Source: Flavobacterium sp.
Lineage (GTDB): Bacteria; Bacteroidota; Bacteroidia; Flavobacteriales; Flavobacteriaceae
Length of the DNA: 37,923 nucleotides
Reading direction: 5' to 3'
NCBI GenBank assembly: GCA_024644805.1
Contig: JAHEHC010000005.1
Coordinates: forward strand, 1-37,923
Shown here: in pieces, positions 24,995 through 28,016 of the stretch
How the letters are laid out: each line of letters starts with the position of its first letter
Position numbering within the stretch: the first letter of the stretch is position 1
The notes under the pieces: model-generated
What the model saw: the letters and a program-made list of their open reading frames with translations, nothing else
Database searches by the model: none
Told to the model about the DNA's origin: nothing
Program-made: the position numbers and the translations under genes

Positions 24995-25362
24995 AGCAGC
25001 TATTGTTAGTGTTTCTTGGAGGTGGTTTCGGAAGCTCTTTAAGATATTTTATTAGTAAATATCTGAATGATTCTCAACTTGGTGTTCCCTATGGGACTTT
25101 TTTTGTAAATATCCTTGGTAGTCTGATTATCGGTTTTTTATTGGGGCTGGCATTTAAATACAAATCCATATCCAATGAGACTATGTTACTGCTAGCCACC
25201 GGATTTTGTGGTGGGTTCACAACCTTCTCTGCATTTGCCTATGAGAATTATATCTATTTCCGTTCTGGTGATTACTTCACACTGGGTGTTTATACGATTC
25301 TCAGTCTTATCTTCGGAATAGCAGCTGTTATGGTTGGAATCTGGTTGGTTCGTTTTACTTAA
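24991..25362 (+). CDS. crcB: CrcB/Fluc fluoride channel
   Basis: From ATG 24991 this is a 123-residue protein with four membrane helices. Hallmarks are the N-terminal GGGFGSSLRY (10-19), GTFFVNILGS with the pore asparagine N40, and GFCGGFTTFSAF (71-82) containing the central Na+ site residues and the phenylalanines of the F- pathway. Fluc proteins form dual-topology dimers exporting fluoride. The frame is open back to 24937, but that would add 18 residues unlike the family and ignore the ATGA overlap with the SRPBCC gene. No fluoride riboswitch is recognisable upstream. The stop overlaps that of the convergent DUF1684 gene by four bases. Confidence 0.95.
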   Translation: MKQLLLVFLGGGFGSSLRYFISKYLNDSQLGVPYGTFFVNILGSLIIGFLLGLAFKYKSISNETMLLLATGFCGGFTTFSAFAYENYIYFRSGDYFTLGVYTILSLIFGIAAVMVGIWLVRFT

Positions 25363-25997
25363 TGATGACCAAAATCCTTAACTCCGGCCTCGATTCGAAT
25401 TAGAAGATCGTTTTCCTTTGGGGGGATCGGACATGAATACCGTTTGTTATAGGCACAATAGGGATTGTACGATTTATTGAAATCGATGATCAGGGCCTCA
25501 CCTTGTGGTACATCAAGGTCAATATATCTGCCTCCGCCATAGGATCCATCCCCAGAGGTCAGATCTGTAAAGGGGAGAAACACATAGTCATCTTCCGGAT
25601 CTTCTACCGGTTTTGTGCTTTTGTACACATTCAGTTTTAACTTCTTGCCATCAATTTCAAAATGAGCCTCACCGTATTTAACATATTCGGGTAAGCGATC
25701 GGTGGTGGTCTTCATTAAAAAAGGTTTTTCATTTGGTGTTCGTATAAAGGAAGCTTCCACATAGAATTTCAGTTCGATTGGATAGAATTCAAGGGATTCG
25801 AATTCTTCAAAATCCTCTGGATCCAAGATGGTTGTATCTTCATTTCTGAAATTTTCATTTAATGATTGTTGATATTCATAGATATCTAATATAATGACTC
25901 CCTTGTCTTTATCTCCAATTCTGGTATCATCTTGTGGAAATGCATGAATTGTCGAAAGTAAGAGCAGAGCAATAATGTATCTTGAAAGTGGTTTCAT
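25359..25997 (-). CDS. DUF1684 family secreted protein
   Basis: At 212 residues it has a signal peptide (MKPLSRYIIALLLLSTIHAFPQ). The mature part is recognisable as DUF1684: LKFYVEASFIRTP, GEAHFEIDGKKLKLNVYKS, DDYVFLPFTDLTSGDGSYGGGRYIDLDVP, DFNKSYNPYCAYNKRYSCPIPPKENDLLIRIEAGVKDF. The C-terminal block with NPYCAYN.RYSCP.PP.EN is the strongest family mark and holds two cysteines that could form a disulphide. The function of the family is unknown. It is monocistronic, divergent from the MFS leader region, with a TAAATTTG element upstream. Confidence 0.9.
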   Translation of the reverse strand: MKPLSRYIIALLLLSTIHAFPQDDTRIGDKDKGVIILDIYEYQQSLNENFRNEDTTILDPEDFEEFESLEFYPIELKFYVEASFIRTPNEKPFLMKTTTDRLPEYVKYGEAHFEIDGKKLKLNVYKSTKPVEDPEDDYVFLPFTDLTSGDGSYGGGRYIDLDVPQGEALIIDFNKSYNPYCAYNKRYSCPIPPKENDLLIRIEAGVKDFGHH

Positions 25998-26022
25998 GGA
26001 ATTGTTTAATTATATTCAATAG

Positions 26023-26030
26023 CAAATTTA
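26023..26030 (-). promoter_or_regulatory. Candidate -7 element of the DUF1684 gene
   Basis: Minus-strand TAAATTTG, an exact TAnnTTTG match 26-33 bases before ATG 25997. It sits where the -33 element of the opposing leader promoter would fall, so the two promoters may interfere. Confidence 0.45.
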
Positions 26031-26045
26031 GTTAAGTTTTTTCAC

Positions 26046-26053
26046 TAGATTTG
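26046..26053 (+). promoter_or_regulatory. Candidate -7 element of the MFS leader transcript
   Basis: TAGATTTG matches TAnnTTTG exactly and ends five bases before the ATG of a 24-codon ORF (26059). The transcript would therefore begin at or very near that ATG (leaderless). No clear TTG -33 element is seen 17-23 bases upstream. Confidence 0.45.
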
Positions 26054-26058
26054 CCAAT

Positions 26059-26133
26059 ATGAAAAATAACGCATACATCTGTTTACCAATAACTGACTTT
26101 TCAGGTTTGAAATGCCAGCGATGTATGTATTGA
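26059..26133 (+). CDS. Putative 24-residue leader peptide of the MFS gene
   Basis: ATG at 26059 and TGA at 26131-26133 give 24 codons, beginning MKNNAYICLPIT and ending LKCQRCMY, with three cysteines (C8, C19, C22). I recognise no homologue. Its position suggests a leader peptide: a promoter element directly upstream, a strong terminator 28 bases after the stop, then the MFS start. The RNA of codons 5-8 (26072-26079, CATACATC) is perfectly complementary to that of codons 21-23 (26120-26127, GATGTATG). The adjacent TGCCAGCG (26113-26120) can pair with the left arm of the terminator. Translation therefore could switch the fold of the downstream RNA. It might instead be chance within a small RNA gene. 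Confidence 0.45.
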   Translation: MKNNAYICLPITDFSGLKCQRCMY

Positions 26134-26160
26134 TTATTAGCAATAAATTAAATCTATATA

Positions 26161-26196
26161 AAAACGTCTGGCAATACTGCCAGACGTTTTATTTTT
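26161..26196 (+). terminator. Strong hairpin terminator or attenuator in front of the MFS gene
   Basis: AAAACGTCTGGCA (26161-26173) and TGCCAGACGTTTT (26178-26190) form a perfect 13-bp stem with a four-base loop ATAC, followed by ATTTTTAT. It ends within about ten bases of the MFS start, with no second promoter visible between them. It must therefore either end a small upstream transcript or be conditionally read through. CTGGCA (26168-26173) is also complementary to TGCCAG (26113-26118) in the leader ORF, a possible antiterminator. Confidence 0.88.
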
Positions 26197-26205
26197 ATGC
26201 CAACC

Positions 26206-27447
26206 ATGAAGAATATCTATCTAAATTACATCAGCTCATTTAAGGGACTCTCTAAAGAGATCTGGCTCTTAGCATTTGTGACTTTCATCAATCGTGCTGG
26301 AACCATGATATTGCCTTTTCTAAGTCGGTACCTTAATGAAGAGTTGATGTTCACTCTGGAAGATGTGGGGATCATTCTATCATTTTTCGGAATTGGATCC
26401 TTGGTTGGTCATTATCTGGGAGGTAAGCTCACCGATAAGATCGGTTTCTACAATGTGATGGTAAGGAGTTTACTGACTACTGGTTTCTTGTTCATAGGCT
26501 TACAATTCGTTACCACATTCTGGGGCTTATGTCTAAGTGTCTTTTTTATTATGAGTATAGCCGATATGTTCCGGCCGGCATTATTTGTTTCACTAAAGGC
26601 CTATAGTAAACCGGAAAATCAAACTCGTTCACTGGCTTTAGTAAGACTGGCTATCAATCTTGGATTCATATTTGGTCCTATCGTTGGAGGTTTGCTTATT
26701 GTCAATAATGGTTATGTTTCGTTGTTCTGGATCGATGGACTAACCTGTATCATATCTACCTTGTTATTCGTGATGTTGGTGAAGAAGAAAGAACTTCATG
26801 ATAAAGATGAAGAACATGAAGAGCAACCTGAAGAAATGAAATTTTCAATATTTAGAGACAAACCCTATCTGATCTTCTTAGGCATCAGTTTTCTAATGGG
26901 TATGGTGTTCATGCAATTGTTCTTTACCATGCCTACCTATCATTATTTCCAGTTTGGTCTATCCGAGGATTATACCGGATTGTTATTGCTATTGAATGGG
27001 GTGATCATCGTGCTTTTGGAAATGCCCATCGTGCATTGGCTGGAGATAAAAAAATCGTCGTATCCAAAGCTCTTTCTATATAGTTCGTTCCTCATGGCTA
27101 TTAGTTTCTTATTCCTGTTGTTTGATGCACATTGGGAGATCCTGATATTACAAATGGTCTTGATCACCGTAGGTGAAATGATCGCTTTCCCATTCACCAA
27201 TACATTTGCAATTAATCGGGCTAAAAAAGGATCTGAGGGGATCTATATGGCCTGGTATTCCATAGCTTTCTCATTTGCACATATTCTTTGTCCGGTAATA
27301 AGCTTTGCCATCATTGAAAAATTTGGTTATAGAACCAATTGGACCATTACTGCAATCTATGGTTTCATCGCAATGTTTTTATCTTTTTGGCTGTATATAA
27401 AACTGAAAAGATCAACTAAATATACCGTAGCTAAAACTGCGTCATGA
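26206..27447 (+). CDS. Major facilitator superfamily transporter (DHA1-like exporter)
   Basis: From ATG 26206 this gives 413 residues (an ATG three codons upstream at 26197 lies in the terminator U tract and is less likely). There are twelve hydrophobic helices with the MFS loop 2-3 motif GGKLTDKIGFYNVMVRS, and the antiporter-type helix 5 region RLAINLGFIFGPIVGGLL. An unusual acidic central loop lies between the two halves (KKKELHDKDEEHEEQPEEMK). The helix 5 'motif C'-like GFIFGPIVGG suggests drug or metabolite export. It has no promoter of its own that I can see, so expression probably depends on the upstream leader. The stop (TGA 27445-27447) overlaps a short decayed frame. Confidence 0.88.
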   Translation: MKNIYLNYISSFKGLSKEIWLLAFVTFINRAGTMILPFLSRYLNEELMFTLEDVGIILSFFGIGSLVGHYLGGKLTDKIGFYNVMVRSLLTTGFLFIGLQFVTTFWGLCLSVFFIMSIADMFRPALFVSLKAYSKPENQTRSLALVRLAINLGFIFGPIVGGLLIVNNGYVSLFWIDGLTCIISTLLFVMLVKKKELHDKDEEHEEQPEEMKFSIFRDKPYLIFLGISFLMGMVFMQLFFTMPTYHYFQFGLSEDYTGLLLLLNGVIIVLLEMPIVHWLEIKKSSYPKLFLYSSFLMAISFLFLLFDAHWEILILQMVLITVGEMIAFPFTNTFAINRAKKGSEGIYMAWYSIAFSFAHILCPVISFAIIEKFGYRTNWTITAIYGFIAMFLSFWLYIKLKRSTKYTVAKTAS

Positions 27448-27578: not shown

Positions 27579-28016
27579 TCATTTTTTCAACACTTTATTC
27601 TCTACGACATGGGATAAAACGATCTGGGTCTTGGTCTCACCATAACTGATCAGTTGATCGATAAAAGCCTCCAGGTGTTTCTGGTTCTTTAAGACCACTT
27701 CCATGACAATATTCTCGTTTCCGGTGATCCTATAGCAATTCAAAACTTCATCATAGGTCTTGACTATTTGAAGGAATGGTTTTAGTTTACCCATAAAGGC
27801 ACGTAAGGTAATGATTGCCTTGAGTTGATATCCCAAATCGAATGGTGATATCTTTGTGGTATATGCGGTTATGACACCCATATCTTCCATCTTTCTAATA
27901 CGTTCCGAAACAGCCGGTGAACTTATTCCGACCTTCCTGCCAATATCCGTATTTGTTTGTCGGGCATTCTCTTGTAAACATTGTAATATTTTCCAATTTA
28001 AAGCGTCCAATAACAT
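27579..28016 (-). CDS. Lrp/AsnC family transcriptional regulator
   Basis: The 145 residues match the family: an N-terminal winged HTH (LDALNWKILQCLQENARQTNTDIGRKVGISSPAVSERIRKMEDMGVITAYT) with the recognition helix SSPAVSERIRKME, then the RAM ligand-binding domain (LKAIITLRAFMGKLKPFLQIVKTYDEVLNCYRITGNENIVMEVVLKNQKHLEAFIDQLISYGETKTQIVLSHV). The GN.N. motif sits at ITGNENIVM, where amino acid effectors bind between subunits. The ligand cannot be predicted. It converges with the MFS gene, so it is a possible but unproven regulator of that exporter. A TATATTTG promoter element lies 38-45 bases upstream. Confidence 0.95.
   Translation of the reverse strand: MLLDALNWKILQCLQENARQTNTDIGRKVGISSPAVSERIRKMEDMGVITAYTTKISPFDLGYQLKAIITLRAFMGKLKPFLQIVKTYDEVLNCYRITGNENIVMEVVLKNQKHLEAFIDQLISYGETKTQIVLSHVVENKVLKK

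Follow-up and report, generated by a model that had tools for sequence, protein, structure and literature searches.

Leader elements and the MFS gene

At this locus in Flavobacterium sp., a gene for an MFS transporter is preceded by a short leader that carries a promoter box, a 24-codon ORF and a terminator hairpin (Table 1). Coordinates refer to the window, by which we mean the whole 37,923-nt stretch of DNA that was analysed. The original prediction placed a ribosome-dependent attenuator at 26046-26206, and a check of the sequence found all of its elements there, with small corrections. The proposed segment 1, CATACATC (26072-26079), pairs with GATGTATG (26120-26127), and the predicted stem is longer than claimed (26071-26079 with 26120-26128). 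The proposed segment 2, TGCCAGCG, pairs with CG (26165-26166) and CTGGCA (26168-26173) of the terminator left arm, with one base bulged. The terminator itself was confirmed as a perfect 13-bp hairpin (26161-26190) followed by a U tract, but the claim that it ends at the MFS start probably does not hold. The more likely start codon is the ATG at 26209 rather than 26197, because the window gene and 13 relatives, with starts chosen by script, align at the M-K of this ATG (one relative has GTG); the end of the hairpin would therefore lie 18 nt upstream of the start codon.

Table 1. Features of the leader and the MFS gene in the window
Feature	Position	Strand	Basis
-7 promoter box TAGATTTG, Bacteroidota TAnnTTTG type	26046..26053	+	sequence
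leader peptide ORF, 24 codons, MKNNAYICLPITDFSGLKCQRCMY and stop	26059..26133	+	sequence; residues common to same-genus L002, L003, L006
protector stem 5' arm (segment 1), codons 5-7	26071..26079	+	pairs with 26120-26128; family co-variation
antiterminator strand (segment 2) TGCCAGCG, codons 19-21	26113..26120	+	pairs with terminator left arm, -11.8 kcal/mol
protector stem 3' arm	26120..26128	+	predicted stem; co-variation
terminator left arm (segment 3)	26161..26173	+	perfect 13-bp stem
terminator right arm (segment 4, 26178-26190), then U tract (26191-26196)	26178..26196	+	sequence, predicted fold
MFS transporter gene (PF07690)	26209..27447	+	Pfam MFS_1 E 1.3e-57; ORF opens at 26197

TAnnTTTG is given as the promoter -7 consensus in PMC7366714. 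In the window, this box lies 5 nt from the ORF start, which is the smallest spacing found (median 20 nt, IQR 19-21), so the window transcript may be nearly leaderless. Consistent with the earlier claim that no other promoter is visible, no TAnnTTTG box was seen by eye between 26134 and 26200. The nearest similar stretch, TATTTTTA at the terminator tail 3' of the hairpin, was considered as a second promoter and set aside as part of the U tract, because its final G is missing and inspection by eye revealed no -33 element.

The sequence matches of the MFS protein to structures were headed by SLC37A4, which is not a drug exporter, followed by NorA, 3wdo and, weakly, LmrP, and none of the 25 NCBIfam models among the matches listed reached its cut-off. 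We infer that the protein exports drugs. Two minus-strand genes lie nearby. A homolog of the DUF1684 gene (25359-25997) was found in the MFS flank in at least 39 of 53 larger loci and at least 56 of 80 named loci, and a homolog of the Lrp/AsnC gene (27579-28016) in at least 16 of the same 53 and at least 23 of the same 80.

We then compared the window sequence with shuffled sequences. The whole leader folded better than 200 of 200 dinucleotide shuffles (z -4.78), but without the terminator 56 of 200 shuffles folded equally well (z -0.50), and single-sequence folding was dropped as evidence for this part. The folding excess of the whole leader in the window comes mostly from the terminator. Comparison with 2000 mononucleotide shuffles gave p 0.027 for the best protector duplex and p 0.0075 for the antiterminator duplex. 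Taken alone, the window makes a moderate, suggestive case for an attenuator, and it is the relatives that settle the matter.

Conservation of the leader ORF and the three helices

Matches to the MFS protein at E <= 0.001, weak paralogs included, were found in 34 of 59 related genomes and in 11 of 19 genomes of the genus. At E <= 1e-60, the protein was present in 230 of 397 family genomes, representing 147 of 231 genera; the named genomes with this protein family are Flavobacteriaceae (Algibacter, Tenacibaculum, Polaribacter, Bizionia, Lacinutrix, Formosa, Winogradskyella, Olleya and others). We analysed 155 loci, consisting of 55 loci and 100 fetched regions picked by score order from 230 genomes' worth, after ten truncated or distant paralogs (L025, L028, L029, L030, L031 and L033-L037) had been excluded from 165. 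A hairpin with a U tract was found less than 130 nt upstream of the MFS start in 128 of the 155 loci. Six of the 155 come from other families of the order, where the terminator was found in 4/6 and the ORF in 1/6 (L017). Among 80 loci from named genomes, 24 of which duplicate sequences of the first set, 71 carried the terminator and 67 the ORF; the terminator rule here was 140 nt, and at least six of the nine loci that fail it show a hairpin by eye (L170, L193, L198, L204, L219 and L223).

The leader ORF was sought with a rule that was fixed after a first look at the loci, namely an ATG, a length of 20-30 codons, a start 85-125 nt and an end 14-46 nt before the terminator. The results showed that 114 of the 128 terminator loci carry such an ORF, compared with 6.7 ± 3.1 (maximum 15) in 40 rounds of dinucleotide shuffles, 7/128 in the reverse complement and 4/99 in a window 140 nt upstream. 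Conservation of the ORF in orthologous loci, on which the original prediction had hung, was thereby borne out. A TAnnTT[TC]G box stands at the matching place in 105 of the 114 leaders, against a mean of 4.8 (maximum 11) in 100 rounds of mononucleotide shuffles.

The peptides share the consensus M[RK]NNVTI[YC][KR][QK]QxTS, a variable basic stretch and R[SC][WR][TA]CY[IV]L(W) before the stop codon. Asp and Glu make up less than 2% of the residues, with at least one present in 37 of 118 deduplicated peptides. Three peptides searched against NCBIfam at E up to 5 matched no family. Among single-base codon changes in codons 2-16, counted over pairs that are not independent, the synonymous fraction in the ORF frame was 0.348 against 0.221 expected, while the other two frames showed no excess (0.192 against 0.262 and 0.229 against 0.237). 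The second codon position changed most (1051, 1828 and 1669 changes at positions 1-3), unlike in a typical gene. Overall, the comparison of sequences indicates that the leader ORF is under coding constraint, with signs of translation. The peptides of the window's genus (L001, L002, L003 and L006) have diverged from the consensus, with the same length and a similar end; L003 has a further in-frame ATG upstream of the 24-codon ORF.

When MAFFT alignments of 58 or 114 leaders were folded with RNAalifold, only the terminator was recovered, and the 20 leaders of 27 codons yielded a 6-bp protector as well. We therefore used cross-pairing tests, in which an arm is paired with its own partner or with a permuted one. 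The protector joins the first codons to the last codons and the bases just 3' of the stop. It was more stable with its own than with permuted partners (-12.31 vs -9.45 kcal/mol, 0/5000 permutations), with z -11.9, a value that, like the other permutation z values here, is not a probability and overstates independence because the loci are related. In 87 deduplicated leaders the value was -12.8, and three control pairings gave z -0.86, 0.29 and -1.28. Codons 9-18 paired with the segment-2 window at z -5.2, indicating that the inner part of the protector reaches segment 2; the innermost protector pairs, which share bases with segment 2, were each formed in only 23-33 of 42 aligned leaders. An unpredicted pairing of codons 9-17 with the last codons was worse than permuted (z +4.3) and was rejected. 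The antiterminator also favoured its own arms (-10.41 vs -8.59 kcal/mol, z -9.3, 0/5000). Over 79 unique arms it gave z -7.5 (0/20000), with z 0.1 for a control window. The two mutually exclusive helices, protector and antiterminator, thus both co-vary across the family.

We also examined an alignment of 42 leaders, hand-picked from the 114. The terminator stem was paired in 98.6% of cells, with compensatory changes. The antiterminator was paired in 89.0% of cells, against 25-53% in slid versions; its co-variation in this alignment was weak, shuffles being as high in 91/500 for paired cells, in 25/500 for the covariation score and in 8/500 for pairs changed on both sides. For the protector and terminator together, paired cells came to 87.3%, against 84.7 in shuffled and 37-48 in slid versions, the latter comparison favouring the protector because its structure was taken from one member (L010); the covariation score was 0.170 against 0.135 (0/500).

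The position of segment 2 was nearly constant in the 114 leaders: its median start is codon 19 (IQR 18-19), and 13 nt (IQR 10-14) separate its end from the stop. It lies inside the ORF in 112 of 114, which is a weak fact because the segment-2 window lies mostly within the ORF by construction; this window was set after the antiterminator pairing in the window leader was known, and the narrow spread of codon positions is more telling. The geometry of segment 2 has a clear meaning for ribosome control. Conservation of the leader ORF together with the alternative 1:2, 2:3 and 3:4 folds in orthologous loci supports the attenuator reading; because ORF and alternative stems were both found in relatives, a lack of conservation does not count against it.

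Association of the leader with the MFS gene

To compare like with like, terminators before MFS genes were set against other terminators in the same DNA, pooling named and unnamed loci, some of them from one genome. The ORF accompanied 89% of 118 terminators before MFS genes, with a mean segment-2 energy of -9.7, against 6.8% and -5.0 for 73 other terminators. The sole other terminator with both an ORF and strong pairing belongs to L194 (Confluentibacter), where repeated stretches stand directly before the MFS gene (about 1000-1200) and a leader-like terminator with an ORF lies elsewhere in the locus; it is probably the MFS leader pushed upstream.

We constructed a covariance model (R1) from the 42 leaders, all of other genera, with the window's genus excluded. 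R1 matched the window leader at 50.4 bits, the single match at E <= 0.1 in its genome, and also matched the opposite strand of the window hairpin weakly (26.2 bits). At E <= 0.1 it matched 106 of 149 genomes, many of them weakly. At E <= 1e-5, the matches listed for the 149 genomes comprised 52 places, 51 of which lie before this MFS gene, as judged from match coordinates and from fetched DNA. The remaining one (L256:501-638, genome G164) is an apparently intact leader, with the peptide MRNNVTIYRMQKTSFKERNWAYYILC and a terminator, that has no MFS gene behind it. The next gene there is the Lrp/AsnC gene, which in the window comes after the MFS gene, and the orphan leader would be explicable if the MFS loss were recent. 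Weaker R1 places were also sampled: of 20 places fetched, 7 lie before the MFS gene, 1 is L256 again, and the other 12 show no such gene in the roughly 2 kb covered. The 12 were considered as copies before other genes and rejected, since by eye they look like ordinary gene-end terminators.

Proposed attenuation mechanism, alternatives and known systems

At the level of sequence, the comparisons establish that the leader has an ORF and three alternating helices of fixed geometry, and that it is tied to the MFS gene. On this basis we consider it probable (about 0.87) that the leader is a cis-acting, ribosome-controlled transcription attenuator that turns the exporter on when ribosomes are slowed, with stalling presumably acting as the switch and induction as the outcome. 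Transcription would begin from the TAnnTTTG promoter, and the leader ORF would be translated during synthesis. If the ribosome is absent or finishes quickly, the early codons would pair with the ORF end to form the protector and the antiterminator strand would be withheld; part of this strand would moreover be masked by a ribosome at the stop codon. The terminator would then form, and transcription would stop before the MFS gene. A ribosome held at about codons 5-15 would instead cover the 5' arm of the protector and leave the strand at about codon 19 free. The free segment 2 would pair with the emerging left arm of the terminator, and RNA polymerase would proceed into the exporter gene.

As to the trigger, we infer a translation-slowing compound, possibly a natural product that targets ribosomes, which the exporter would expel, and not a shortage of a single amino acid; translation-inhibiting compounds are favoured over starvation as the signal with moderate confidence. 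Since the conserved core VTI..QxTS falls in the stall window, peptide-dependent arrest is possible. We tentatively suggest, at somewhat less than even odds, that the core VTI[YC][KR][KQ]QxTS (about codons 5-14) acts as a nascent chain, stopping the ribosome only when a particular compound is bound, and so serves much of the family as a sensor of the exporter's substrate. The Ser/Thr richness of the core would fit phenicols, oxazolidinones and similar inhibitors, with which arrest is strongest when the penultimate residue is Ala and weaker when it is Ser or Thr (PMC8987054). An MRLR-like stall motif of the Mef(E)L/ErmDL type was sought in the 181 peptides, and RLR occurred in none; a macrolide-type [KR]x[KR] at codons 4-15 occurred in 20 of the 181.

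The alternative that survives best is an attenuator of the amino-acid type, in which the ribosome lags at control codons when a charged tRNA, such as that for threonine or lysine, runs short, and an amino-acid transporter is switched on. It has in its favour that 97% of the 118 deduplicated peptides have a Thr and 96% a Lys at codons 4-15, that a homolog of the Lrp/AsnC gene recurs in the MFS flank (at least 16 of 53 larger loci), and that there are clues to leader-peptide attenuation before amino-acid operons of Flavobacterium psychrophilum (PMC9723704). However, 67% of the 118 peptides have two or more Thr at codons 4-15, the same codons of the window peptide hold one Thr and no Lys, and runs of three or more of a single residue were found in only 15 of 181 peptides, mostly Arg, Lys or Asn/Ser in the variable parts. 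An exporter induced by starvation also makes little sense, although export is itself our reading of the MFS protein. Taken together, we regard control by a scarce amino acid as unlikely.

A trans-acting small RNA or microprotein with its own terminator, the MFS gene having another promoter, would agree with the leader without an MFS gene in L256 and with the gap of at least 140 nt that sometimes separates leader and MFS start (L170, L193 and L198, by eye). It is made improbable by 51 of the 52 strongest listed R1 matches standing before the MFS gene, by the absence, by eye, of a TAnnTTTG box 3' of the terminator in the window, and by the co-variation of the antiterminator strand with the terminator arm, which a plain terminator would not need. 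Still less probable is a riboswitch made of RNA alone, or a protein-bound leader, with the ORF as a by-product: alternation of terminator and antiterminator is a riboswitch trait too, but the ORF has a fixed place and length and shows coding constraint, the stems are made from both ORF ends, and the alignment showed no compact conserved aptamer. A search of 25900-26400 against Rfam 15 gave nothing at the gathering score, the best match by bits being the trpB motif (25.3; threshold 59). Finally, an ordinary terminator of the upstream unit next to a random short ORF would fit the unremarkable folding of the window leader minus its terminator (z -0.50), but ORF conservation, co-variation and the comparison of MFS with other terminators contradict chance almost completely.

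Under the attenuator reading, many genomes gain a gene of about 25 codons, and a short terminated transcript of about 130 nt is predicted to be visible in RNA-seq. If the switch is family-wide in Flavobacteriaceae, translation slow-down would be a routine export signal there. The leader could be a guide to natural inhibitors encountered by these bacteria, and the 118 deduplicated peptides offer more than 100 natural variants for finding which peptide and compound together stall these ribosomes. If the arrest-peptide reading is true, much of one bacterial family would use a peptide to sense the very substrate that the exporter handles.

Drug-responsive attenuator leader peptides are best known from Gram-positive resistance genes. 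In amino-acid attenuators of the trp/his type, the 1:2, 2:3 and 3:4 helices exclude one another, the leader ORF lies over segment 1, and segment 2 lies near the end of the ORF. The flavobacterial leader shares these three helices, with its ORF over segment 1 and segment 2 near the ORF end, but it differs in lacking a run of any one control codon and in preceding an MFS transporter gene rather than a biosynthesis gene. The mef(E)/mel system of Streptococcus pneumoniae (PMC4335068) is similar in that a short leader ORF within a stem, an anti-attenuator and a Rho-independent terminator precede an MFS exporter gene controlled at transcription. Mef(E)L itself has 8 residues (MTASMRLR), lies in a leader of 327 bases that includes a consensus ribosome-binding site, and responds to macrolides (PMC4335068), whereas the flavobacterial leader has 20-30 codons in about 135 nt, belongs to Flavobacteriaceae and has no related peptide.

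Closer relatives and other genes offer partial parallels. Leader-peptide attenuation has been proposed in Flavobacterium psychrophilum (PMC9723704), which is of the same family and concerns the same mechanism class; that proposal is about amino-acid biosynthesis, and the term MFS is absent from the paper's main text. The present leader is possibly among the 64 structured 5' regions of its Table S7, unremarked. In Bacteroides thetaiotaomicron, of the same phylum and another order, sORFs in 5' UTRs were described as resembling leader peptides and attenuation was suggested (PMC7366714), with a hypothetical protein gene and no exporter named in the portion of that source consulted. The uORF of E. 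coli topAI-yjhQ (PMC12121999) senses ribosome stalling by several classes of ribosome-targeting antibiotics, in another organism and before another gene. A survey of premature terminators (PMC2965389) names neither Flavobacterium nor Bacteroidetes in its main text, and PMC10197871 proved a false lead. No report of the leader was found in the titles and abstract openings of the open-licence papers listed. The mechanism class is thus known, from amino-acid attenuators and from mef(E)L for an MFS pump, and this leader is without a description that we could find.

Within the family, 14 of the 128 terminator loci fail the ORF rule. The leader ORF is absent from the same-genus homologs L004, L005 and L032, and L007 has no ATG, indicating that the switch is dispensable. 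By eye, L005 and L032 retain a hairpin upstream of the MFS gene, and the hairpin of L004 has decayed. In L007 (about 1325-1410) the leader end is conserved and ATT stands at the matching place, which would be either a rare start codon or a sign of a dying ORF. One locus counted among the 114, L019 (1348-1481), carries an unrelated leader ORF, MRNKNYITIKPVLRCPWILLGDL, with its own terminator; its MFS protein is a more distant same-genus homolog, 47% identical. In two genomes (L024 and L028/L032), stops or a change of frame disrupt the MFS homolog, and the leader of L024 looks intact.
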